Made by a program: the position numbers and the translations under genes. Positions 8,473 through 28,598 of a DNA stretch of 36,776 bases are shown one piece after another. The notes below the pieces were generated by a model. That model was not told the DNA's origin. It saw only the letters and a list, made by a program, of their open reading frames with translations, and did not search any database. This DNA comes from Nitrospinota bacterium. GTDB taxonomy: Bacteria > UBA8248. Position 1 is the stretch's first letter. Each line of letters opens with the position of its first letter. Where the stretch lies: the NCBI GenBank assembly GCA_009839615.1, contig VXPH01000152.1, positions 1 through 36,776 on the forward strand, written 5' to 3'.

Positions 8473-9216
8473 ATGTGGCCATCCTGGGATATCACGCTTC
8501 TCGTCTTCGCAGCGGCCTTCCTCGAGGGCGCCGCGGGGATAGACTTCGGCCTCCTGGCGACGCCGGCGCTGGGCGCTCTCATCGGGGTGCGCGATTCCGT
8601 GCTCACCCTTTCGCTTCCGAACCTCATCCTGGTGGCGATTCGCGCGATCGGAGGCGGGGTTCCCGCCCCTTCGCTCAAACGCCTCATGCCCTTCCTGGGC
8701 GCGGGTGCTGCCGGCGCGGCCGTGGGCGTGCTGACGCTCATCGCCAGCCCGCCCACGTTCCTCAAGTGGTCGGTGGGCGTTCTCGTCCTGTTGTTCGCCG
8801 TCTACAGCATCTCGCGCCAGAGAGTCCAGCTCGACATGCGCGATGAGACCTTCTTCACCTATCTGGCCGGGTTCTTCGCGGGCGGCCTGAGCGGCTTTTC
8901 CTACGCGGGCAACCCCGTCAGCATCATGTATCTCGACAGCACGGGCGCGGGCCGTGCCCGGATGATGCGGCTCACCTACACTGGAGCACTCGTGTTCGCG
9001 AGCGTTCAGATAGCGGTGCTGAGCGGCTCGGGCGCGCTGGGGGCCTTCGAGTCCGCGCGCTCGGCCGTATCGATTCTCCCCGCCGTCGCCGGATTCCTGC
9101 TGGGAAGGCTTCTGCGCGGTCGCATCCCGCCCGCCATCGGCTTTACGCTTGGTCTGGTGCTGATGATTGCCGCAGCGCTCGCTTTGCTGATTTTCGGCCC
9201 TTCGGGGTGGAAGTGA
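8473..9216 (+). CDS. TauE/SafE-family membrane transporter (putative anion/sulfite exporter)
   Basis: This 247-residue integral membrane protein is built mainly of hydrophobic helices, about seven or eight by eye. It opens with LLVFAAAFLEGAAGIDFGLL, which resembles the first TauE/SafE helix. The second half repeats the pattern (FFAGGLSGFSYAGNP), as expected for the two-repeat TauE/SafE fold. Family members are implicated in export of sulfite, sulfoacetate or related C2/C3 sulfur compounds, but many homologues are uncharacterised. The gene follows the amidohydrolase by 18 bp. It converges on kdsD, and no clear terminator lies between them. The start codon has only a weak ribosome-binding site, consistent with coupling to the upstream gene. 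Confidence 0.8.
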   Translation: MWPSWDITLLVFAAAFLEGAAGIDFGLLATPALGALIGVRDSVLTLSLPNLILVAIRAIGGGVPAPSLKRLMPFLGAGAAGAAVGVLTLIASPPTFLKWSVGVLVLLFAVYSISRQRVQLDMRDETFFTYLAGFFAGGLSGFSYAGNPVSIMYLDSTGAGRARMMRLTYTGALVFASVQIAVLSGSGALGAFESARSAVSILPAVAGFLLGRLLRGRIPPAIGFTLGLVLMIAAALALLIFGPSGWK

Positions 9217-17177: not shown

Positions 17178-17519
17178 TTACTCCAGCAACGAAATGGGAC
17201 GGCGGCCCGCGAACCCCCCTTCATAGCTGTGGAAATGTTCGATGTCGTCCTCGCCGAGCTTCCAGCAGTAATAATAGCCGTCTCCCGAATCAAAATCCGC
17301 CAGCCACAAGCCCTTGACCTCCACGCCCAAGTCTCTGACGGCCTTCACCCATTCTTGAACCGCGTCATTCATGAGTCCCTCGATGCGCTTGATATCGCCC
17401 GACCCCTCAGGGCTTTCCAACTCTTCGCGCAACGCCTCGACGACGTCGTGGTAGTGCTGCGTCACTTCCCTGATCTGCGGCAGCAGAGCACGGGCTTCCT
17501 GCAGCGTAAAGATAGCCAT
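17178..17519 (-). CDS. DUF2203-family protein
   Basis: This 113-residue protein opens with IFTLQEARALLPQIREVTQ. It has a heptad-like helical region (about 15-60), then a conserved C-terminal part with VKGLWLADFDSGDGYYYCWKLGEDDIEHFHSYEGGFAGR, the DUF2203 signature. Function is unknown. The ATG at 17519 has AAGGAA about 7 nt upstream; a TTG one codon earlier (17522) is also possible. It lies 119 bp after the acyl-CoA-dehydrogenase-fold gene on the same strand and converges on the plus-strand gene at 15910-17130. It is probably cytoplasmic. Confidence 0.85.
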   Translation of the reverse strand: MAIFTLQEARALLPQIREVTQHYHDVVEALREELESPEGSGDIKRIEGLMNDAVQEWVKAVRDLGVEVKGLWLADFDSGDGYYYCWKLGEDDIEHFHSYEGGFAGRRPISLLE

Positions 17520-17638
17520 CAACGTTCCTTTGCAATATGGCCGGGGTTATCTGCTCTCTCCGGCGAGGTTGCGGTTTCTAAAAGCCAGGCGGGCACGGAC
17601 CGCTTTCATGAGACGCCCGCCTTTTGATCGGGGTTTTC

Positions 17639-18799
17639 TCACTCTCCCCGGCGCTGCGAGAATTTTCTCCCGAAAATGCCAGAGGCGATGACGTTTCGCT
17701 GCGCCTGGGTGGTGCCGCCGCCGATGGTGAACATCCGCACGTCGCGCGCCATGCGCTCGATCGGCAGATCGCGCGAATAGCCCGCCGCTCCGAAAATCTG
17801 GAGCGCGTCATTCGCCACCTTGATCGAGGCTTCCGCCGAAAACGTCTTGGCGATGGCGGCGAGGTGCATGTCGGGAAAACTCGTCTTCGGGTCTTCCTGC
17901 ACCGCCGCCCGGTGGAGCAGCAGCCGCGCGGCGTCGAGCTGGATGCGTCCGTCCGCCAGAATCCACTGAAGCCCCTGGAACTCCGATATCGGGCGGCCGA
18001 ACTGGCGGCGTTTTTTCGCGTATTCCACCGCCTGGGCGAAGGCTCCTTCGGCGAGGCCCAGGGCCACCGTACCGGCACCCACGCGCTGCGCGTTGTAGGC
18101 GGCCATCAGGCGGCCGAAACCCACCGTCACCAGGTTTTCCCGGGGCACACGGCAGTTCTCGAAAATCTCCTCACTCTCGGGAATTCCCCGCAAGCCCATC
18201 ATGAAGGCGCGCTCCCCGACCCGGAAGCCCTCCGCTCCCAACTCCACGATCAGGGCGCCGATTCCCTGCTCGTCCCCTCCGTGCACCACGCGGGCGAACA
18301 CGAGGTTGATGTGCGATACCCCTGCGCCGGTGATCCATTTCTTCTTGCCGTTCAGGATATATTCATCGCCGTCGAGCACGGCCCGCGTCGTCATGTCGGT
18401 GGCGGCGCTCCCCGCCTCGGGCTCTGTGATGACGATGGCGGGCTTATCGCCGTTCAACACCATGGGCAGATACTTTTTCTTCTGCTCCTCGGTGCCATAT
18501 TTGATGATCGCCCCCACCACGCCCATGTTGCTGTCCACCACGATGCGTCCCGTGATGCCGCAGACCTTGGCCATCTCCTCGACCACAAGGACCGCCTCGA
18601 TGAGCGGGCGCTCGGGGCCGCCGTATTCCTCGGGGATGTTCATGCCCATGAAGCCGGCCTCGGCCAGAATCTGCGCGTTCTCCCAGGGGTATTCCTCGGT
18701 CTCGTCCCAATGCGCCGCCCTGGGCGCTATCTGGCTCTCGGCGATTTCGCGGGCTTTTTGCCGGATTTCCCGTTGAGCGTCGGTGAGGTCGAAGTCCAC
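17639..18799 (-). CDS. Acyl-CoA-dehydrogenase-fold protein, possible 3-sulfinopropionyl-CoA desulfinase-like
   Basis: The 386-residue protein has all structural marks of acyl-CoA dehydrogenases: ITEPEAGSAATDM (FAD/substrate loop), WITGAG, RRQFGRPISEFQGLQW and the C-terminal ERMARDVRMF. The position of the catalytic Glu in MCAD-type enzymes (YEGTSQ) reads IGGGTTQ (359-365), with Gly361. The alternative isovaleryl-CoA-type Glu position reads NAQRVGAG with Gln238. An Arg at 85 (ITGRIVVD) stands in the substrate region. From memory, an Arg near 84 and a Gln replacing the base characterise 3-sulfinopropionyl-CoA desulfinase of Advenella; this is a recalled match, not a search. The start is GTG at 18799, with AGGAGG about 8 nt upstream. 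If it is not a desulfinase, it is an ordinary uncharacterised dehydrogenase. Confidence 0.8.
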   Translation of the reverse strand: MDFDLTDAQREIRQKAREIAESQIAPRAAHWDETEEYPWENAQILAEAGFMGMNIPEEYGGPERPLIEAVLVVEEMAKVCGITGRIVVDSNMGVVGAIIKYGTEEQKKKYLPMVLNGDKPAIVITEPEAGSAATDMTTRAVLDGDEYILNGKKKWITGAGVSHINLVFARVVHGGDEQGIGALIVELGAEGFRVGERAFMMGLRGIPESEEIFENCRVPRENLVTVGFGRLMAAYNAQRVGAGTVALGLAEGAFAQAVEYAKKRRQFGRPISEFQGLQWILADGRIQLDAARLLLHRAAVQEDPKTSFPDMHLAAIAKTFSAEASIKVANDALQIFGAAGYSRDLPIERMARDVRMFTIGGGTTQAQRNVIASGIFGRKFSQRRGE

Positions 18800-19016
18800 C
18801 GAGGCCTCCTTTCAGGTGCAAGTAGCGAAGGATCAAGAAAATTCGTTATGCAACGACTCGCCCGGGCGCGCAAGGGGAAGTGAGAACGAATGGGGCAACC
18901 CCGTAGGATTGTAGTAAGGACAACCCTTTTGGGTTGTCCTGCCCCCTATGGTTGTCCCTCATGAGGATAGGCACAGGGGCCTGTCCCTACGGAATATAAT
19001 GGCCAACCCTCGCGTC
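18800..19016. repeat. 217-bp gap with a 10-bp perfect hairpin and repeat-like sequence
   Basis: AGGACAACCC (18917-18926) and GGGTTGTCCT (18931-18940) form a perfect 10-bp stem around TTTT. Related ggttgtcc and cctgtccctacgg sequences follow, including caccatagg-like phrasing also typical of dispersed intergenic hairpins. There is no T-run in either direction, so it is not a standard terminator. It separates the crotonase gene from the next minus-strand gene and could stabilise or trim the transcript. Confidence 0.5.
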
Positions 19017-19772
19017 CTACCTCCCCTTGAAGCGCGGCGGTCTTTTCTCCTTGAAAGCGCGCACGCCTTCTTCCGCGTCTTTGGTCTCGAGGAGGCGCTT
19101 CAGGATCACGTCGCCGAAGCGCAGGGCGTCTTCCATCGTCATATCGCGCGCGCGGACGGTGATCTCCTTGATGGCGCGCACCGCCAAAGGCGCGTTCGCC
19201 AGCACTTGTCGCGCGATCTTCTCGGTCTCCTCCAGCACTTTTTCCTTGGGCACCACCTTGTTCACGAGGCCGAGCCTGAGCGCGGTCTCCGCGTCAATGG
19301 GCTCGCCCGTGAACAGATGATAGTGCGCGAGGTTGAAGGGCAGCAGCTTCGCCAGGAGAATCGGCCCGCTGACGGAAGATATGCCGCGAACGACCTGCGG
19401 CCAGCCGAGCTGCGTGTCTTCGGCCATCACACGCACGTCGCAGGAGAGCGCGATGCCTGCCCCGCCTGCCAGGCAGAACCCGTTGATCGCCGCGAAGCAG
19501 GGCTTAAAAAGCTCCATGATGACCTGGTAGAGGTCGGAGACGGGTTTGACCTCCCCCTCCTCGGGCGGCGGCTCGGTGAGGTCGTGGCCGCTTGAAAACG
19601 CCTTTCCGTTCCCCGTAATCAGACACCCCCACACGCCGGGGTCGCGCTCCATCTCGTCGAAGAGCGCGAAGATGCGCTCGCTCATCTCGTGGTTGATCGC
19701 GTTCATCTTCTCCGGCCTGTTCAGCGTGATGCAGGCCAGCTTGTCCCTCACCTCATATTCGACCAGCGCCAT
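19017..19772 (-). CDS. Crotonase-superfamily (enoyl-CoA hydratase/isomerase-like) protein with altered active site
   Basis: This 251-residue protein follows the crotonase fold, with the oxyanion-hole segments GKAFSSGHDL (56-65) and NGFCLAGGAGIALSCD (97-112). In enoyl-CoA hydratase the second segment ends GGGCE and a later one reads GQPE, the two glutamates that add water. Here these read GGAGI (Gly106) and GWPQ (Gln126), so both catalytic glutamates are missing. Classical hydratase activity is therefore doubtful. A different CoA-thioester reaction (isomerase, hydrolase, decarboxylase or dehalogenase) is possible. It sits in a minus-strand acyl-CoA gene run, 23 bp after the HAD gene. GAGGGGAC precedes the ATG at 19772. 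The annotation as enoyl-CoA hydratase would be by fold only. Confidence 0.85.
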   Translation of the reverse strand: MALVEYEVRDKLACITLNRPEKMNAINHEMSERIFALFDEMERDPGVWGCLITGNGKAFSSGHDLTEPPPEEGEVKPVSDLYQVIMELFKPCFAAINGFCLAGGAGIALSCDVRVMAEDTQLGWPQVVRGISSVSGPILLAKLLPFNLAHYHLFTGEPIDAETALRLGLVNKVVPKEKVLEETEKIARQVLANAPLAVRAIKEITVRARDMTMEDALRFGDVILKRLLETKDAEEGVRAFKEKRPPRFKGR

Positions 19773-19795: not shown

Positions 19796-20584
19796 CTAGC
19801 CGCCCGGCAGATGCGGCATCAGATCATCGAGCGTCTTGACTTCCAGATCCGCCGTCACGTCCGGATCCCCGGCAATTACGCCCCAGCGGTTCACCCACAC
19901 GGTGGCCATGCCCACCTTCTGGCCGCCCGCGATGTCCGTCCTCAGGTTATCCCCCACCATGAGGGCATGGCGCGCTTCCACGCTCAGCTCTTCGAGCGCC
20001 TCTTCAAAAAGAAAAGGCTCGGGCTTCCCGAAAAACACCGGCTCACGCCCCGCCGCCGCCCGCACGGACGCCACGATGGCGCCGCCTCCGAGCGAGAACG
20101 AGCCATCCTCGCTCGGCAGGCGCACGTCGGGGTTCATGGCGACGAAACGCGCCCCCCGGCTCACCGCCCGCGCGGCGGCGCTCAAGGTCTCGTAGGTGAG
20201 GTCCTCATCCAGACCGACGAGGACGACGTCTGCCCTCTCTTCCTCGTCAGGCCTCAAAATCTCGAAACCACCCGATGCGACCGCACTTTTGAGCGAATCC
20301 GTCCCCAGCACGAATGCGCTGCCCGATCCGAAGTTCTTCCTCAGGAACGAGCCGACACGGTCCAGGGCGGCCACGATGAGGTTCTCTCCAGGGTCCAGGC
20401 CGATCCCCGCCATGTGGGCGCGAATCTCCGCCGCCGTGCTGCGGCTGATATTCGTGATGAAGCGATGAGGCAGATCTCTCGCCTTGACGGCCTGCATCAA
20501 CTCCCGTCCGCCGGGCATCACCTCGTCTCCGGCGAAGAAAACCCCTTCCAGGTCGAACACGAAAGCCTTCTTGTCATGAAACAT
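19796..20584 (-). CDS. HAD-IIA-type phosphatase (NagD-like)
   Basis: The 262-residue HAD-superfamily protein has motif I FDLEGVFF (Asp11), motif II ITNISRST (about 43-50), motif III Lys in FFGKPEP and motif IV VGDNLRTDI. The cap between motifs II and III is of the C2 (NagD/4-nitrophenylphosphatase) type. Normally motif I reads DxD; here the second acid is Glu13, a conservative but unusual change at the general acid/base. It probably hydrolyses a small phosphorylated metabolite, substrate unknown. It lies 9 bp after the CoA-transferase gene and 23 bp before the crotonase gene, clearly within the same transcript, though its link to acyl-CoA chemistry is unclear. Confidence 0.85.
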   Translation of the reverse strand: MFHDKKAFVFDLEGVFFAGDEVMPGGRELMQAVKARDLPHRFITNISRSTAAEIRAHMAGIGLDPGENLIVAALDRVGSFLRKNFGSGSAFVLGTDSLKSAVASGGFEILRPDEEERADVVLVGLDEDLTYETLSAAARAVSRGARFVAMNPDVRLPSEDGSFSLGGGAIVASVRAAAGREPVFFGKPEPFLFEEALEELSVEARHALMVGDNLRTDIAGGQKVGMATVWVNRWGVIAGDPDVTADLEVKTLDDLMPHLPGG

Positions 20585-20593
20585 GACGGCCTC

Positions 20594-21802
20594 TCAGATC
20601 GCCTTGCGCTCTCTTAGCCGCTCGATTTCCGCGTCGCTCAGGTCGAGCACTTCCTTGAGCACCTCTTCGGTGTGCTCACCCATCAGGGGCGGCGGCGAGG
20701 GGGCCGCGCCCCAGGTGCCCTCCATCTTGATGGGCGTGTTGAACGTGCGCATCTCGCCGAGTTCGGGGTGCGTCATCTCCACCACCATCTCGCGCGAGCG
20801 CGTCTGGGGATCGTTCAGCGCCTCGTCGATGGTCTGAATCGGCCCGCAGGGGACGCCGTGCGCATCGATACGCTCTATCCAGTGCGCGGCGGTGTTCGTC
20901 TTGTAGACTTCCGAGAGCTTTGCGTCCACGTACTCGCGGTTCTCGAGGCGGGTGGGGCGATCCTTCATCCTCGGGTCGTCCTTCCACTCGGGATGGCCCA
21001 GCGCGTCGCAGAGGCTCTCGAAGAAATGATCCAGAATGGCGTCGAGCACGAGCCACTTGCCGTCCCCGCACTGGTACGCGCCGATGGGAACGGCGGAGGC
21101 GTGCCCCGTGCCCATCGGCTCGGCCACGTCGCCCGCCGTCAGGTAGTACTGCGCGCGGTAGCTCGCGAGATATAGCTGGCTGTCCAGGAGCGAGACGTCC
21201 ACCTTCTGGCCCACGCCCGTCCGCTCGCGCTTGTAGAGCGCCGCCAGAATCCCGTGGGCGGCGAACATTCCGCCTCCCATGTCCCCCATCGGAACGCCCA
21301 GGCGCACGGGCGGCCTGCCCGGCTCGCCGGTGAAGCTCATGATGCCGCCGCGCCCCTGGATGATGAGGTCGAGCGCGGGCTTGTCCTTCTGGGGACCGGT
21401 GAGTCCGTAGCCGGTGACGGATGCGCTGATGATGCGCGGGTTCACCACTTTCAGCGTTTCGTAGTCCGCGCCGAGCCGCTCGAGGACGCCGGGGCGGTAG
21501 TTGTCATAGACGACGTCGGAGCGCTTCACCATCTCGCAAAAGACGCGGTAACCCTCCTCGTCTTTGAGGTTCAGGAAAATGCCCCGCTTGTTCCTGTTGA
21601 GCGCGATGAAGTAGGCGCTCGTCTCCCCGACGTAGTGCGGGGGCATCGTGCGGACGAGGTCGCCCCTGCCCGGCACTTCTATCTTGATGACGTCCGCGCC
21701 CAGATCGGCCAGCACCATGCTGCCGTAAGGGCCGGCGAGCAGGGCGGAAAGATCGAGTATGCGCACGCCATCCAGCGGCTTTTCCAAAACTGATTCCCCC
21801 AC
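20594..21802 (-). CDS. Class III (CaiB/BaiF) CoA-transferase
   Basis: This protein of about 402 residues matches the family III CoA-transferases: LDGVRILDLSALLAGPYGSMVLADLGADVIKIE at the start, IALNRNKRGIFLNLK, and the catalytic-Asp segment VPMGDMGGGMFAAHG. It moves CoA between carboxylic acids without a separate ligase. The substrate is unknown; succinyl-CoA-dependent activation of an organic acid fits the neighbours. Open frame extends to 21889 but would overlap the upstream gene. I take GTG at 21802, just after the mutase small-subunit stop and before the conserved core, although no strong ribosome-binding site is seen. It is the third gene of the mutase cluster. Confidence 0.87.
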   Translation of the reverse strand: MGESVLEKPLDGVRILDLSALLAGPYGSMVLADLGADVIKIEVPGRGDLVRTMPPHYVGETSAYFIALNRNKRGIFLNLKDEEGYRVFCEMVKRSDVVYDNYRPGVLERLGADYETLKVVNPRIISASVTGYGLTGPQKDKPALDLIIQGRGGIMSFTGEPGRPPVRLGVPMGDMGGGMFAAHGILAALYKRERTGVGQKVDVSLLDSQLYLASYRAQYYLTAGDVAEPMGTGHASAVPIGAYQCGDGKWLVLDAILDHFFESLCDALGHPEWKDDPRMKDRPTRLENREYVDAKLSEVYKTNTAAHWIERIDAHGVPCGPIQTIDEALNDPQTRSREMVVEMTHPELGEMRTFNTPIKMEGTWGAAPSPPPLMGEHTEEVLKEVLDLSDAEIERLRERKAI

Positions 21803-21818
21803 GAAAGATGCGCCGCCG

Positions 21819-22220
21819 TCAGGCCGCGTTGTTCCGGATGTAGGAGACGACTTCGGCCATCTCCGCATGGTGGTTGAACACTTCGGCAACGCCTAGGGAT
21901 TTCAGCTGCACCACGTCGCGCTCCAAGATGTTCCCGCCCAGGATGACGAGGCAATCATCGAGTCCTTCTTCGGCGATTCTCGCCATGAGCCTGCGCGCAA
22001 TCCCCATGTAGGAGCCCGAGAGTATACTCAGGCCGATCACGTCCACGTTCTCCTGTATCGCGACGGAGACGATCTGCTCGACCGTCTGCCGAAGGCCCGA
22101 GTAGATCACCTCCATGCCTGCGTCTCTCAGCGCGTGGATGATGACCTTGACGCCCCGGTCATGCCCGTCGAGGCCCGGCTTCGCCATCAGTACCCGTATG
22201 CGTTTGTCTTGCGCCACCAT
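21819..22220 (-). CDS. mcmA2: Cobalamin-binding small subunit of acyl-CoA mutase
   Basis: This 133-residue B12-binding domain has the DxHxxG motif (GLDGHDRG) that holds the lower cobalt ligand. GLSILSGSY and VILGGNI follow, typical of methylmalonyl-CoA mutase C-terminal domains. It overlaps the large-subunit stop by one base (TGATG), so the two are translated together. Open frame runs upstream to 22346, but the ATG at 22220 begins the conserved sequence. Stand-alone small subunits of this size are known for methylmalonyl-, isobutyryl- and 2-hydroxyisobutyryl-CoA mutases. The symbol follows the methylmalonyl-CoA mutase name but substrate is not certain. Confidence 0.92.
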   Translation of the reverse strand: MVAQDKRIRVLMAKPGLDGHDRGVKVIIHALRDAGMEVIYSGLRQTVEQIVSVAIQENVDVIGLSILSGSYMGIARRLMARIAEEGLDDCLVILGGNILERDVVQLKSLGVAEVFNHHAEMAEVVSYIRNNAA

Positions 22221-23869
22221 CAAACGACCGACGGCTCCACGTAGGCGCCGAAGGCGCTGCGCATTACCCCGGTCATCTCTCCCACCGTCAGGCCCGCGCG
22301 GGCGGCGTCCATGAGATAAGGTACGAGGTTCTCGCTCGACTCGCACGCTCTCGCCAGCTTTTCGAGCTGCGCAGCCGCTTCGCCCGCATCGCGGGCGGCC
22401 TTCACCCGTGCGAGGCGCTCTTTTTGCTTTTCGAGCACCGAATCGTCCGCCTCGTAGAGACCCTCGCCCGCGCTCATGCGGTCTTCCTCCTCGGAGGTGA
22501 ACTTATTCACCCCCACCCACACCTGCTCGCCTTGTGCGATTTTCCGCTGGTGCTCATAGGCCTGACGCGCCAAGAGTCTCTGGATTTCCCCGCTCTCGAT
22601 GAAGGAGACGATTCCGCCGCGCGATTCGTAATCGTCCACGATGGCCTGAATCTCCGCTTCCACCTGATCCGTCACGGCCTCCACTGCATAGCCCCCCGCC
22701 AGCGGGTCGACCGTGTCGGCCACGCCGCTCTCATGGGCGATGACCTGCTGGATCCTAAGCGCCGTGCGGATGGACTCGTCCGAGGGAATCTCGAAGGCCT
22801 CGTCGAAACACGCCATGTTGACCGAGCGCGTGCCGCCCAGCACGGCGACCAGGGTGAAGAGCGTCTGGCGCACGATGTTGTTGAGCGGTTCGCGCGCCGC
22901 CATGCGGCTGCCGCAGTTGCCGGTCGAGAACTTAAGCTGCATGGTTTTCGGGTTTTTCGCGCCGTATTTCTCCTTCATCGTGCGCGCCCAGATGCGCCGC
23001 GCGGCGCGCAGTTTGCCGATCGATTCGAGCAGGTTGAACGGCCCGACGCCCCCGCCGACGGACAGGTGGAACGACATCGTGGGCACGAAGTCATCCACGT
23101 GGAGGCCGCGCGCAGTGAGTTCGCGTATGTAGGCCAGGGCGTTCAGGATGGGAAAGGCGACGTCCTGCGCGAGGGTGGCGCCCGTTTCGGCGATGTGGGT
23201 AGCCGATACGCTGACGGCGTTCACGCGCGGGCAGTGCTTCGCGTTGTATTCGATGATGTCGGCCACCAGGCGCATGGAGGGTCTCGGGGGAAATATCCAC
23301 GTGCCCCGGCCTATGTATTCCTTGAGCATGTCGTTCTGGAAGGTGCCGCGCAGCTTCTCCAGTGCGACGCCCTGGCGCTCGGCGGCGATGAGCCAGAACG
23401 CCTGTATGATGGCGGCGGTCGAGTTGATGGTGTGCGATACGCTCACCCTGTCGAGCGGTATGCCCTCGAAAACGTCCGCCATGTCCTGGGCGGTGTCCAC
23501 GGCGACGCCCAGGCGGCCCACGTCGTCCTGTGCGGCTTCGTCGTCCGAGTCCAGCCCAAGCTGCGTGGGGAGATCGTAAGCCATCGAGAGACCCGTCTGG
23601 CCGTTTCCGAGCAGAAAATTGAACCGCGCGTTGGTGTCCGCCGAGGTGGAAAAGCCCGCGTACTGGCGCATCGTCCACAGCGAACCCCGGTACATCGTGG
23701 GGTAGATGCCCCGCGTGTAGGGGTATTCTCCCGGCGCGCCGAGCTTTTCCTGATACACGGCGTCGGGCGCATCGGGCTCGTACACCACGGGCACGGGCTT
23801 CCCCGAGTTGTAGGCCGCCTCGCGGACGGGACGCTCTTTTTTCGCGCCGTTATCCTTGGGCTTAGCCAT
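22220..23869 (-). CDS. mcmA1: Acyl-CoA mutase large (catalytic) subunit, methylmalonyl-CoA mutase-like
   Basis: The 549-residue TIM-barrel subunit of an adenosylcobalamin-dependent mutase keeps Tyr70 in WTMRQYAGF (Tyr89 of the Propionibacterium enzyme). It also keeps Arg200 in PPRPSMR (Arg207) and His225 (His244). These favour methylmalonyl-CoA over isobutyryl-CoA type. Two positions differ: the arginine usual in YRGRxWTxRQ is Ser63, and the tyrosine of SGYH is Thr224 (SATH). The substrate may therefore differ. The protein lacks the cobalamin domain, which is supplied by the next gene. AGGAG lies about 8 nt before the ATG. No MeaB-type chaperone, epimerase or propionyl-CoA carboxylase is in the window, so the full propionate pathway is not shown here. 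It heads a minus-strand run down to the HAD and crotonase genes. Confidence 0.9.
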   Translation of the reverse strand: MAKPKDNGAKKERPVREAAYNSGKPVPVVYEPDAPDAVYQEKLGAPGEYPYTRGIYPTMYRGSLWTMRQYAGFSTSADTNARFNFLLGNGQTGLSMAYDLPTQLGLDSDDEAAQDDVGRLGVAVDTAQDMADVFEGIPLDRVSVSHTINSTAAIIQAFWLIAAERQGVALEKLRGTFQNDMLKEYIGRGTWIFPPRPSMRLVADIIEYNAKHCPRVNAVSVSATHIAETGATLAQDVAFPILNALAYIRELTARGLHVDDFVPTMSFHLSVGGGVGPFNLLESIGKLRAARRIWARTMKEKYGAKNPKTMQLKFSTGNCGSRMAAREPLNNIVRQTLFTLVAVLGGTRSVNMACFDEAFEIPSDESIRTALRIQQVIAHESGVADTVDPLAGGYAVEAVTDQVEAEIQAIVDDYESRGGIVSFIESGEIQRLLARQAYEHQRKIAQGEQVWVGVNKFTSEEEDRMSAGEGLYEADDSVLEKQKERLARVKAARDAGEAAAQLEKLARACESSENLVPYLMDAARAGLTVGEMTGVMRSAFGAYVEPSVV

Positions 23870-24053: not shown

Positions 24054-24833
24054 ATGAGTCAATCCCTTTTCGATCTGAGCGGTGCGAAGGCGCTCATAAC
24101 GGGCGCTGGCCGCGGCATCGGGCGCACGCTGGCCGAGGGCTTCGCCGCCGCGGGCGCTGACGTCGCCATCGCGGACATCGACATCGAACCCGCGGGCGAA
24201 GCGAAGGAAGCCATCGAGAGCATGGGCCGCAAATGCGCGCTCATCCAGGCCGACGTGACCGACATGGAATCGGCCGAGCGCATGGTAATAGAAGCCGCAG
24301 CAGCACTCGGCGGCCTCACCATTCTGGTGAACAACGCGGGCACGAACGTGCGGAAAACGCTCTGGGACATCAGCGAGGCGGATTGGGACAGGATCCTCGA
24401 CCTGAACTTGAAGAGCATCTTTTTCATCACGCGGCGCGCGGGCGAGGAGATGAAGAAAGCGGGCGGCGGCAAGGTGATCAACATCTCATCCCTGATGGGC
24501 TGGTCCGTCTTCCGGAATCCCCGTCAGCAGTGCTACGGGCCTTATACGTCTTCGAAGAGCGGCCTCATCGGCCTGACGCGCGTCTTCGCCCGCGAGTATG
24601 CGACGGACAACATCCAGGTGAACGCCATCTGCCCCACCTTCATCGAAACGGAACTCACCGCCTCCCTGCAGGAGGACGAACTCATCTACGACGCCATCTG
24701 CGAGAGAACGCCCATGGGCCGCTTCGGGCAGATGAGGGAACTGGTGGGCCCGGCCATCTTCCTGGCTTCCGAGGCGAGCAGCCTCGTCACGGGCACATCG
24801 CTCCTGGTCGACGGCGGATGGTATGCCACCTGA
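24054..24833 (+). CDS. Short-chain dehydrogenase/reductase (SDR)
   Basis: This 259-residue classical SDR has TGAGRGIG (about 17-24) and an acidic patch after beta-2 (ADIDIE), suggesting NAD preference. VNNAG, ISSLMGW with the catalytic serine, YTSSK and the C-terminal LLVDGGWYAT are also present. It resembles gluconate-5-dehydrogenase and 3-oxoacyl reductase members, but the substrate is not known. AAAGGAGGAG precedes the ATG. Its last 11 bases overlap the ATP-grasp gene, so the two products are likely made together. The gene is divergent from the mutase cluster. Confidence 0.88.
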   Translation: MSQSLFDLSGAKALITGAGRGIGRTLAEGFAAAGADVAIADIDIEPAGEAKEAIESMGRKCALIQADVTDMESAERMVIEAAAALGGLTILVNNAGTNVRKTLWDISEADWDRILDLNLKSIFFITRRAGEEMKKAGGGKVINISSLMGWSVFRNPRQQCYGPYTSSKSGLIGLTRVFAREYATDNIQVNAICPTFIETELTASLQEDELIYDAICERTPMGRFGQMRELVGPAIFLASEASSLVTGTSLLVDGGWYAT

Positions 24834-26076
24834 AGAAGGAAAACGCGTTCTCCTGCTCATGACGACGGCCACCTACCGTGCATCCGCCTACATGGCGGCG
24901 GCTCAGGAGATGGGCGTCCGCGTCACGGTGGGAACCGACCGGCCCGACCTACTGGCCGAACTGAACCCGGGCGGCTCCATTACGCTCGATTACGGTCAAC
25001 CTGAGGTAGGCGCGGGCCTCGTCGAATCGTTCGCAAAGGAGTTCCCCATCGACGCTATCGCGCCGGTGGACGACGATACGCTCATCCTGGGCGCGATGGC
25101 CGCCGAAGCGCTGGGGCTGCCCTACCATCCCGTGGAGGCCGCCCGCACGACGCGGAGCAAATACGAACTCAGGAAAGTGCTCTCCGAAGAGGGCCTGCCC
25201 TCGCCCTCGTTCCGCCTCGTCTCCGCCCAGGAGGAGCCGGAGAAAATCGCTGCGAGCATCCCCTACCCCTGCGTGCTCAAGCCCACTTTCCTCGCCGCCA
25301 GCCGGGGCGTGATTCGCGCGAATGACCCGGCGGAATTCGCGGAGGCCTACCGCCGGGTCGGCGCGATACTGGAAGACCCCGAGACCATCGCGCGCGGCGG
25401 GGCGGAGGCGCGGATGATCCTGGTGGAAGATTACCTGGGCGGCATCGAGGTGGCGGTGGAGGGCCTCGTCGTGCGCGGCGAGGCGCACATTCTCGCCATC
25501 TTCGACAAGCCCGACCCGCTCGAAGGCCCCTTTTTCGAGGAAACCATCTACGTCACGCCCTCAAGGCTGCCGGAAGAAACGCAAGCCGCCATTCGCGAAG
25601 AAACCATACGCGCCGCCCGCGCCATCCGCCTGCGCGAGGGGCCCCTCCACGCGGAGCTTAGAATCAACGACGCGGGCGAAATCCATGTGATCGACGTGGC
25701 GAGCCGCGCCATCGGCGGGAAATGCTCGGGCGCGCTCGAATTCGGCGGCGGCGCCTCACTCGAATGCCTCATCCTCTCGCAAGCCCTGGGCGTCGTGCCC
25801 CCCTCCATGGAACGCGAGAAAAAGGCTTCCGGCGTCATGATGATCCCCATCCCCGGCGCGGGGGTGCTGAAGGGAGTCGAGGGCAAAGAGGAAGCCCTGG
25901 CCGTACCCGGAATCGTGGAAGTCGACATATCCATCCACATCGGAGGCCGCGTCGTGCCGCTGCCCGAGGGAGAGAGGTACCTGGGCTTCATCTTCGCCAA
26001 GGGGGAGCGACCCGAAGAGGTGGAGGCCGCCCTGCGCGCCGCGCACGCGAAACTCCGCTTCGATATCGGGGAATAG
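24823..26076 (+). CDS. ATP-grasp ligase (L-amino-acid ligase-like)
   Basis: The 417-residue protein has a preATP-grasp N-terminal domain (about 8-110), a central ATP-grasp domain and a C-terminal LAL-type domain. Central motifs are YPCVLKPTFLAASRGV (ATP-binding Lys) and VEDYLGGIEVAVEG, followed by the metal/substrate segment EIHVIDVASRAIGGKCS. The C-terminal motifs are PIPGAGVLKGV, ALAVPGIVEV and ERYLGFIFAKG. The family joins a carboxylate, via an acyl phosphate, to an amine to form an amide or dipeptide. Its ATG at 24823 lies inside the SDR gene (11-bp overlap), with a weak ribosome-binding site, indicating coupled translation. An amino-acid or acid-amine ligase acting with the SDR is a reasonable guess, but the product is unknown. 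Confidence 0.85.
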   Translation: MPPEEGKRVLLLMTTATYRASAYMAAAQEMGVRVTVGTDRPDLLAELNPGGSITLDYGQPEVGAGLVESFAKEFPIDAIAPVDDDTLILGAMAAEALGLPYHPVEAARTTRSKYELRKVLSEEGLPSPSFRLVSAQEEPEKIAASIPYPCVLKPTFLAASRGVIRANDPAEFAEAYRRVGAILEDPETIARGGAEARMILVEDYLGGIEVAVEGLVVRGEAHILAIFDKPDPLEGPFFEETIYVTPSRLPEETQAAIREETIRAARAIRLREGPLHAELRINDAGEIHVIDVASRAIGGKCSGALEFGGGASLECLILSQALGVVPPSMEREKKASGVMMIPIPGAGVLKGVEGKEEALAVPGIVEVDISIHIGGRVVPLPEGERYLGFIFAKGERPEEVEAALRAAHAKLRFDIGE

Positions 26077-26814: not shown

Positions 26815-27672
26815 CTAGAGAGGGGTACGCGCCTTGATGTCCTCTTCGGTCACGTCCCCCATGTAGACGTAGCCCGTCTCCTCCACGCTCCCGCTGCCGA
26901 TGTAGATGCCCACCGCCTCGATGGGATCGGTATCGCTCAGGTTGTGGAGCCAGTGTTCCACCCCCTTGGGGATGTAATGGAAATGCCCGCCGCGCACCTC
27001 GACGCGGTCCGGACCCGCCCCCGCCAGGCCGTGGCCGCTGATGATGTAGTATATCTCCTCGCAGTTGTCGTGCCTGTGCTTCTTGTGCACCGCACCCGGG
27101 AAGAATCGTGCGCGAAACAGCGTCGTATCGCTGCCGTTGTGCCGCCCGATGGGGAGCCGGAAGTCGGTGATCGACCAGCCCTCGCCCTCGTTCATGTTTT
27201 CAGGCTGCACGTCGTCCAGGTGCACCAGGATGCCGTCGGTTATGCCCGCACGCGGCATATCGAGGTCGGCTTGCGTCACGTCGCCGCGAAACCCATAGCC
27301 CGTGCCCGCCACGCTCGGCGCGCCGAGATAGAACCCGACCACCATCGCCTCTTCGTCTTCCGTCTCGTTGTAGAAGAAATGGGTCGAGCCCTTGGGCATG
27401 AGGCGGCAGTGGCCCTCGCGCACCTCGGCGCGCTCCTCGCCCTGGCCGACCACGCCGTGACCCTTGAGATACACCGCTATTTCCTCGCACTCGCTATGCA
27501 AGTGTTTCGCGTGCGTGGAGCCGGGCCGGAAGATGGAGTGAAAAGTCGTCGTCGAGCTACCGTGCGCGCCGGTGATGGGCAGGCGAAACTCCGAGATCGC
27601 CCAGCCCTCCTTTTCCTCCATCTTCTCGGGCGTTACGTCGTCGATGTGCACCAGGGGGTATTGAAGCGGCAT
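26815..27672 (-). CDS. Bicupin protein A
   Basis: The 285-residue protein is made of two tandem cupin units (about 8-131 and 148-278), each starting with a D-V-x-P-E-x-M-x-E-x-E-G-W phrase. Both have metal sites: His57, His59, Glu63/64 and His98 in unit 1; His199, His201, Glu205/206 and His240 in unit 2. It is a paralogue of the next gene upstream (27726-28598), and together they carry four related cupin units. The function is unknown; double cupins include dioxygenases, decarboxylases and isomerases. GAGGAA precedes the ATG. It follows the paralogue by 53 bp and the zinc dehydrogenase further upstream, forming a likely three-gene unit. Confidence 0.85.
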   Translation of the reverse strand: MPLQYPLVHIDDVTPEKMEEKEGWAISEFRLPITGAHGSSTTTFHSIFRPGSTHAKHLHSECEEIAVYLKGHGVVGQGEERAEVREGHCRLMPKGSTHFFYNETEDEEAMVVGFYLGAPSVAGTGYGFRGDVTQADLDMPRAGITDGILVHLDDVQPENMNEGEGWSITDFRLPIGRHNGSDTTLFRARFFPGAVHKKHRHDNCEEIYYIISGHGLAGAGPDRVEVRGGHFHYIPKGVEHWLHNLSDTDPIEAVGIYIGSGSVEETGYVYMGDVTEEDIKARTPL

Positions 27673-27725
27673 AAAATGTTCCTCACAGAATAGTTGTTCT
27701 TCTCAAAACAGGACGATCGCGAAGC

Positions 27726-28598
27726 CTATTCGATAGCGCCCGTCCGCTGTTTCAGGTCCTCATCGGTCACCGGCCCCAGGTACTCGAAGCCGCTCTCATC
27801 CAGTCCGCCGACGCCAATGTACCAGCCCGGCGCGGAAAGGTCTTCGGTGTCGTCGATGTTCGCGAGCCAGTGCTCCGTGGCGGCGGGGATGTAGTTGACG
27901 TCGCCTGCGAACACTTCCCCGCGATCGTTCCCGATGCCCGCCAGGCCGCGGCCCTTCAGGATGTAGCATATCTCCTCGCAGTTGTTGTGGCGGTGCTTCA
28001 TGTGGATGGTGTGGGGGCCGAAGTAGCCCTGCATCCAGCACGAGCCCGCGCCGACGCTGCGGTTTAACGGCTCGTTGAAGTAATCCTGCGTCCAGCCCTC
28101 CTCATGCGACACCTTGACGTGAGGAACCTCGTCGTTGTGCACGAGCGGATGCTTGAGAGCGGCGGCATTGAGCGTGCGCGGGGCGGTGATGTCGGCCTCG
28201 GTGATATCGCCGAGGTAGATGCGGCCCGTGTCCTTAAAATAGGGAACGCGGTCGTAGAACCCGATGATGATGAGGGGATCGTGCCGGCCCAGGTTCACGA
28301 GCCAGTGCTCCACGCCCTTAGGGATCAGGTGGAAGTGGCCCGCGTGGACCTCGGCGCGATCCTCCCCCGCGCCCGCCAGGCCGTGGCCGCTCACGACGTA
28401 ATACTGCATCTGGCAGTTCTCGTAGCGGTGCTTGTGGATGCGCTCGCCGGGGGCCAGGGTGGCGTGGTACATGATGGAAGAAGACCCCTCCTTCCCGCTC
28501 ACGACGACCCTGAAATCGGAGACGTTCCAGCCCTCTTTCTCATCGAGTTTCTCGGGCGTCACGTTGGCGATGCGGATGTAGGGATGTTCAAAAGCCAT
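27726..28598 (-). CDS. Bicupin protein B
   Basis: This 290-residue two-cupin protein is a paralogue of bicupin A. In unit 1 (about 8-133) two usual metal ligands are changed: the second His is Tyr59 and the Glu is Gln63 (HKHRYENCQMQ), while His57 and His98 remain, so metal binding there is doubtful. Unit 2 (about 152-282) keeps His202, His204, Glu208/209 and His243. The gene therefore looks like one active and one structural or regulatory cupin unit. GAGGAGG lies about 8 nt before the ATG. It is 48 bp after the dehydrogenase gene and 53 bp before bicupin A. Confidence 0.85.
   Translation of the reverse strand: MAFEHPYIRIANVTPEKLDEKEGWNVSDFRVVVSGKEGSSSIMYHATLAPGERIHKHRYENCQMQYYVVSGHGLAGAGEDRAEVHAGHFHLIPKGVEHWLVNLGRHDPLIIIGFYDRVPYFKDTGRIYLGDITEADITAPRTLNAAALKHPLVHNDEVPHVKVSHEEGWTQDYFNEPLNRSVGAGSCWMQGYFGPHTIHMKHRHNNCEEICYILKGRGLAGIGNDRGEVFAGDVNYIPAATEHWLANIDDTEDLSAPGWYIGVGGLDESGFEYLGPVTDEDLKQRTGAIE

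Follow-up and report, generated by a model that had tools for sequence, protein, structure and literature searches.

A desulfinase-like protein of the acyl-CoA-dehydrogenase fold encoded in a Nitrospinota genome

The window, by which we mean the whole stretch of 36,776 nucleotides analysed here, comes from a Nitrospinota bacterium and carries on its minus strand, at 17639..18799, a complete open reading frame (ORF) of 386 amino acids with a GTG start. It encodes a desulfinase-type protein of the acyl-CoA-dehydrogenase fold (Acd-like; gene acd), in which the acyl-CoA-dehydrogenase N, middle, and C domains of Pfam were all recognized. A Shine–Dalgarno-like sequence, AAAGGAGG (18805..18812, minus strand), lies 5 bases before the GTG and was kept in all five genus sequences. 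The codons of the active-site residues Arg85, Gln238, and Gly361, assigned by alignment, lie on the same strand at 18545..18547, 18086..18088, and 17717..17719, respectively, as calculated from the GTG at 18799. Downstream of acd, after a gap of 116 bases, follows a gene for a DUF2203 protein (17178..17522, minus strand), which adjoined acd in five of five related loci of the genus.

Upstream of acd and on the same strand, profile matches identified a crotonase-family protein (19017..19772), a HAD-IIA hydrolase (19796..20584), a class III CoA-transferase (20594..21889), and the B12-binding small subunit (21819..22346) and large subunit (22220..23869) of a B12-dependent acyl-CoA mutase. The ORFs listed in this row either overlap or are separated by gaps of 9 and 23 bases. 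Translation of the small mutase subunit probably starts at an ATG near 22222, which overlaps the mutase stop. The crotonase has Gly and Gln at the columns that we take to be those of the two catalytic Glu residues of hydratases, and is thus probably not a plain hydratase. The large mutase subunit scored 451 bits for 2-hydroxyisobutyryl-CoA mutase versus 382 bits for methylmalonyl-CoA mutase. Its pocket columns are altered in the alignment: the equivalents of Tyr89 and Arg207, presumably the methylmalonyl-type residues, are retained, and Thr and Gly stand at two other conserved columns. The genome encodes at least three further mutases, and the mutase and CoA-transferase were also found in a second genus, on contigs ending at that point. 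Divergent from the mutase operon lie genes for an SDR protein and an ATP-grasp ligase (24054–26076), whose order was kept in the second genus (L153).

The window has a gap of 217 bases between the crotonase gene and acd, compared with about 220 to 650 bases in four relatives, and the upstream DNA of this gap is repeat-rich and unalignable between relatives, with a mean column identity of 37%. Palindromic, repeat-rich DNA fills about 18880–19016 of the window and the same gap in loci L021–L024, varying in length and sequence between these close relatives. The block right before acd, containing CCTTGCGCGCCC...GAGTCGTTGCATAAC, was common to all five genus sequences with a mean column identity of 85% over 114 aligned columns, and within it a promoter-like arrangement of TTGCGC, 17 nt, and CATAAC (18845..18875, minus strand) was near-invariant in all five. 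A sigma-70 scan did not report this conserved block, so the word promoter is used here by inference from its conservation. The arrangement suggests for acd a transcription unit separate from the mutase operon, perhaps shared with the DUF2203 gene, and acd probably has a promoter of its own.

The first-pass annotation of this DNA had described an enzyme in which both usual positions of the catalytic Glu are changed and an Arg stands in the substrate region, like the 3-sulfinopropionyl-CoA desulfinase AcdDPN7 of Advenella mimigardefordensis (5af7, 5ahs; NF042439). Its residue numbering and the ORF coordinates were right, as Arg85, Gln238, and Gly361 align exactly with Arg84, Gln246, and Gly366 of crystallised AcdDPN7, and it is Arg84 and Gln246 that we take to define the 3-sulfinopropionyl-CoA desulfinase family. 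At the Gly361 column, the alignment has Glu in eight of eight ordinary acyl-CoA dehydrogenases (ACADs). The Gln238 column, presumably that of the isovaleryl-type catalytic Glu, has Glu in the own-genome paralog L002 and several relatives. Neither position is acidic in the window protein, which has the Arg and Gln of the desulfinases, no catalytic Glu, and no isovaleryl-type hallmark, Gln238 standing in its place.

The best PDB sequence match was likewise AcdDPN7 (5af7), with 426 bits compared with 289 bits for the next, the acyl-CoA dehydrogenase 5ol2. The two proteins are 56% identical in a two-sequence alignment, and the segments around the active site, which were chosen by us, are 72% identical to AcdDPN7 as against 51% for the rest. 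When the same comparison was made for four paralogs from the own genome, the two figures lay within 6 points of each other. The desulfinase model NF042439 was the best NCBIfam match with 552.7 bits, the second model reaching 350, and this score lies below the annotation cut-off of 600. Twelve of 14 sampled genomes with other clade members had a match above that cut-off, and two fell short too. The window protein further differs from AcdDPN7 in its motif at Gly361 (IGGG, versus AGG in AcdDPN7) and in the loop before the Gln238 helix, which is 6 residues shorter.

An AlphaFold model of the protein (pLDDT 90.4) had 5ahs as its best structural match, with a Z score of 55.2 and an rmsd of 1.4 over 381 residues, whereas the first entry outside the AcdDPN7 enzyme had a Z score of 49.1. 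The predicted structure is thus of the acyl-CoA-dehydrogenase fold and closest to AcdDPN7, and this match speaks for fold, not for function. Glutaryl-CoA dehydrogenase (3mpi, 1siq), which probably has a carboxylate-binding Arg at the place of Arg85, shares the fold with the modelled window protein, but is a poorer match than AcdDPN7 in sequence (196 versus 426 bits) and structure (Z 47.1 versus 55.2). It also retains the catalytic Glu, in a YEG motif, according to PMC8360864, unlike the window protein.

A scan of a species-genome collection gave 65 loci, which were divided on the basis of their residues into 62 close relatives and three ordinary dehydrogenases (L080–L082; L082 was also left out of the trees). 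The 62 loci together with the window and AcdDPN7 make up 64 clade rows. The Arg/Gln/Gly triplet occurred in all 64 and in none of the nine outgroup rows, and was absent from the distant locus L082 as well, so it is not a chance combination. The alignment took in seven of the 24 further ACAD matches from the own genome. Twenty columns, the triplet and 17 more, were fixed or nearly so in the clade (63 or 64 of 64) and absent from eight ordinary ACADs, the ninth outgroup row, paralog L002, being omitted from this comparison. The window protein carries all 20, as does AcdDPN7; one of them, Gln382, lies beyond the end of the outgroup rows and therefore tests nothing.

The clade was separated from ordinary ACADs with a support of 98/97 in the first tree and of 100/100 in a larger tree with more relatives, from which 16 near-duplicates and three distant paralogs had been dropped, and the window protein lay inside it. 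It did not group with isovaleryl- or glutaryl-type dehydrogenases, as would have spoken against the annotated active site; the trees held ordinary paralogs rather than those reference enzymes. Within the clade, the six sequences of the genus, including the window, formed the deepest branch, sister to the other 58 rows of the first tree. In the larger tree, this branch was joined with a support of 93/76 by two relatives from one genome of the order of Comamonas. Both trees placed the Nitrospinota branch outside the branch with the characterised enzyme. The genus branch lacks the 6-residue stretch before the Gln238-bearing helix and departs from the clade at 13 columns that are otherwise fixed (95% or more), this gap included. 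Paralog L002 (G000:C157:2214-3350), in which Asp takes the place of Arg85, Glu that of Gln238, and the usual motif reads AGG, attached to the desulfinase clade at its base by a long branch.

The motif at the Gly361 position was GGG in 35, AGG in 28, and SGG in one of the 64 clade rows. An Act-type transferase was not in view for 25 of the 29 GGG rows outside the genus versus 8 of the 28 AGG rows, which links the GGG part of the clade less firmly to the known pathway. The genes around several GGG relatives gave no hint of function. The two relatives from the order of Comamonas (L188:6949-8115 and L189:9461-10636), which carry Arg, Gln, and GGG and are possibly sister to the Nitrospinota branch, lie in catabolic clusters with genes for a CoA ligase, crotonases, an enolase-superfamily enzyme, a thiolase, and a Cys/Met PLP enzyme. 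Another group of ACADs, comprising L178:9998-11173 on a Sagittula plasmid, L184, and L187, has GGG or AAG and a Glu at the Gln238 column; genes for a CoA-transferase and a crotonase adjoin that of L178.

In Variovorax TBEA6, act, acdA, and mdo form one cluster, and in Advenella 3-sulfinopropionate is activated by SucCD (PMC6370202, PMC5373536). Among the 57 clade loci outside the genus, 25 had a class III CoA-transferase beside acd, like the act/acdA pair of Variovorax (PMC6370202), which counts in favor of a desulfinase. These 25 transferases formed one clade in a quick tree with many long branches (SH-aLRT 99). The CoA-transferase of the window fell outside this clade and was rejected as an Act ortholog; it scored 290 bits with the succinate-glutarate CoA-transferase model, compared with 476 and 507 bits for two acd-adjacent transferases. 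The window therefore has no Act-type CoA-transferase beside acd, a neighbor that is not required, since Advenella activates its substrate with SucCD.

According to PMC8050391, Gln-type thiol dioxygenases can be told by a Gln at one column. A longest-ORF survey of neighboring genes was muddied by shadow ORFs and was used only to spot frequent families, among them one with a CDO_I-matching representative (L056) at eight loci. Two CDO-like proteins are encoded in the genome, and 17 of the 18 genomes of the family had at least one match. As candidates for the 3-mercaptopropionate dioxygenase Mdo, the family-wide protein L085/L130 was rejected on account of an Arg in the Gln-type column and the lack of a clear partner for Arg168, both read from the alignment. 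The second thiol dioxygenase (C137) was read by eye only, and the cupins at 26818–28598 match Cupin_2 and Cupin_1, not CDO_I. No Gln-type 3-mercaptopropionate dioxygenase was thus identified among the two CDO-like proteins, since the first of them has Arg at the Gln-type column, and the window differs from the AcdDPN7 system in having neither an Act-type nor a Gln-type Mdo neighbor.

The first-pass annotation had also suggested that the TauE/SafE-family gene, correctly placed at 8473..9216 on the plus strand (PF01925), might be the partner of an enzyme that releases sulfite. An ortholog of this gene was present in 16 of the 18 family genomes, among them 10 of the 11 genomes whose genera lack the desulfinase. 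TauE thus occurs across the family with or without acd, shows no specific link to it, and was rejected as its partner. The annotated desulfinase-like active site, now joined by the clade and the fold, was borne out, while the role given to TauE was not. Four genes of the sulfite-oxidase family were found in the genome, and the product of one is closest to animal sulfite oxidase and SorA, at a score far below the SorA cut-off (231 of 600).

The gene acd was present in six of the seven genomes of the genus with 96–100% identity and, at E 1e-90, in none of the 11 genomes from the family's other genera. Its absence from genus g2 is weak evidence, because in G001 and G002 the contig breaks off within the CoA-transferase or shortly behind it. 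The same applies to G009, the genome of which is 79% complete and also lacks the close mutase and transferase. The closest relatives include three metagenome-assembled genomes (MAGs) named Nitrospinota or Nitrospinae, and one close-relative MAG is named COS4_bin_23. Since seven Nitrospinota MAGs were reported from a study of reef demosponges including Coscinoderma matthewsi (PMC8163846), this name points to a sponge origin, and the host, an uncultured marine bacterium, is probably a sponge symbiont. A search of the open literature, with most subscription papers outside it, returned no paper linking a desulfinase to Nitrospinota.

The genes upstream of acd would also suit an enzyme that dehydrogenates and decarboxylates a substituted malonyl-CoA, as does the benzylmalonyl-CoA dehydrogenase IaaF, which was compared by its published description only. 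In such a route, a substituted succinate would be activated by the CoA-transferase and rearranged by the B12 mutase to a substituted malonyl-CoA, which the window enzyme would oxidise and decarboxylate for the next steps of beta-oxidation. In that description, IaaF orthologs have no catalytic Glu and show GGG instead of YEG, and the CoA-transferase IaaL and the B12 mutase IaaGH are encoded in the iaa operon (PMC8360864). The window protein has the same GGG in its IGGG, the mutase, CoA-transferase, and crotonase genes lie on the same strand nearby, and the Thr and Gly of the mutase could mean a larger substrate; the mutase among the neighbors thus counts against a desulfinase and fits an IaaF-like enzyme. 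However, GGG is not diagnostic of IaaF, because 35 of the 64 desulfinase-clade rows carry it, four of them beside an Act-type transferase. The active-site segments are nearly those of AcdDPN7, a variable, unalignable gap and the conserved 5′ block separate acd from the mutase and CoA-transferase genes, and no mutase was found in the available flanks of the 57 relatives outside the genus. IaaF itself is placed by its authors on an isolated branch of its own, outside every other subfamily (PMC8360864). No IaaF was identified among plasmids and 399 genomes of one order, where the GGG relatives L178 and L184 have Glu at the Gln column. We regard an IaaF-like route as rather unlikely. That mutase and desulfinase form one route, in which the thioester carbon of a branched 2-sulfinoacyl-CoA would be moved to give a 3-sulfinoacyl-CoA for cleavage by the desulfinase, appears very improbable.

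The deep branch with its altered loop raises the possibility, which we consider unlikely, that the pocket of the clade, devoid of a base and bearing Arg, was kept for another short acid-bearing CoA thioester, for example to isomerise a succinyl-like substrate or to carry out an elimination on it. The surroundings of the possible sister sequences L188 and L189, which share Arg, Gln, and GGG and lie near a CoA ligase, crotonases, and a thiolase, would agree with such a change, while the conservation of all 20 clade-specific columns in the window protein argues against it. The overall fold and domains seen here would also fit an ordinary acyl-CoA dehydrogenase whose base had been displaced, but with Glu at neither usual position and no grouping with ordinary paralogs, we give this explanation hardly any credence.

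The window protein is, in our estimation, probably a deep-branching desulfinase with 3-sulfinopropionyl-CoA or a near analogue as its putative substrate. The score below the NF042439 cut-off, the deepest branch, and the 6-residue loop deletion count against this assignment, as do a CoA-transferase outside the Act clade and the lack of a Gln-type dioxygenase. For the substrate, the reaction, the role of Arg85, and the fate of sulfite, we infer the following course. The terminal group of a short CoA thioester, a sulfinate or else a succinyl-like carboxylate, would be held by Arg85, and with no catalytic Glu at either usual site, abstraction of the alpha-proton would be suppressed. Cleavage would instead fall on the C–S bond, next to the flavin, and yield propionyl-CoA and sulfite without any net change in redox state, and the sulfite could be removed by a sulfite-oxidase-family enzyme encoded elsewhere in the genome.

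For annotation, these findings carry the warning that proteins with GGG and no catalytic Glu can be decarboxylating dehydrogenases as well as desulfinases, for which the Arg/Gln pair may serve as the better marker. Should the window protein be a desulfinase, the reaction would extend to a phylum distant from the Pseudomonadota, where it was worked out. It would then provide a sink for organic sulfur of the 3-mercaptopropionate type in a genus probably living in marine sponges, which suggests that the host takes part in the recycling of organic sulfur.
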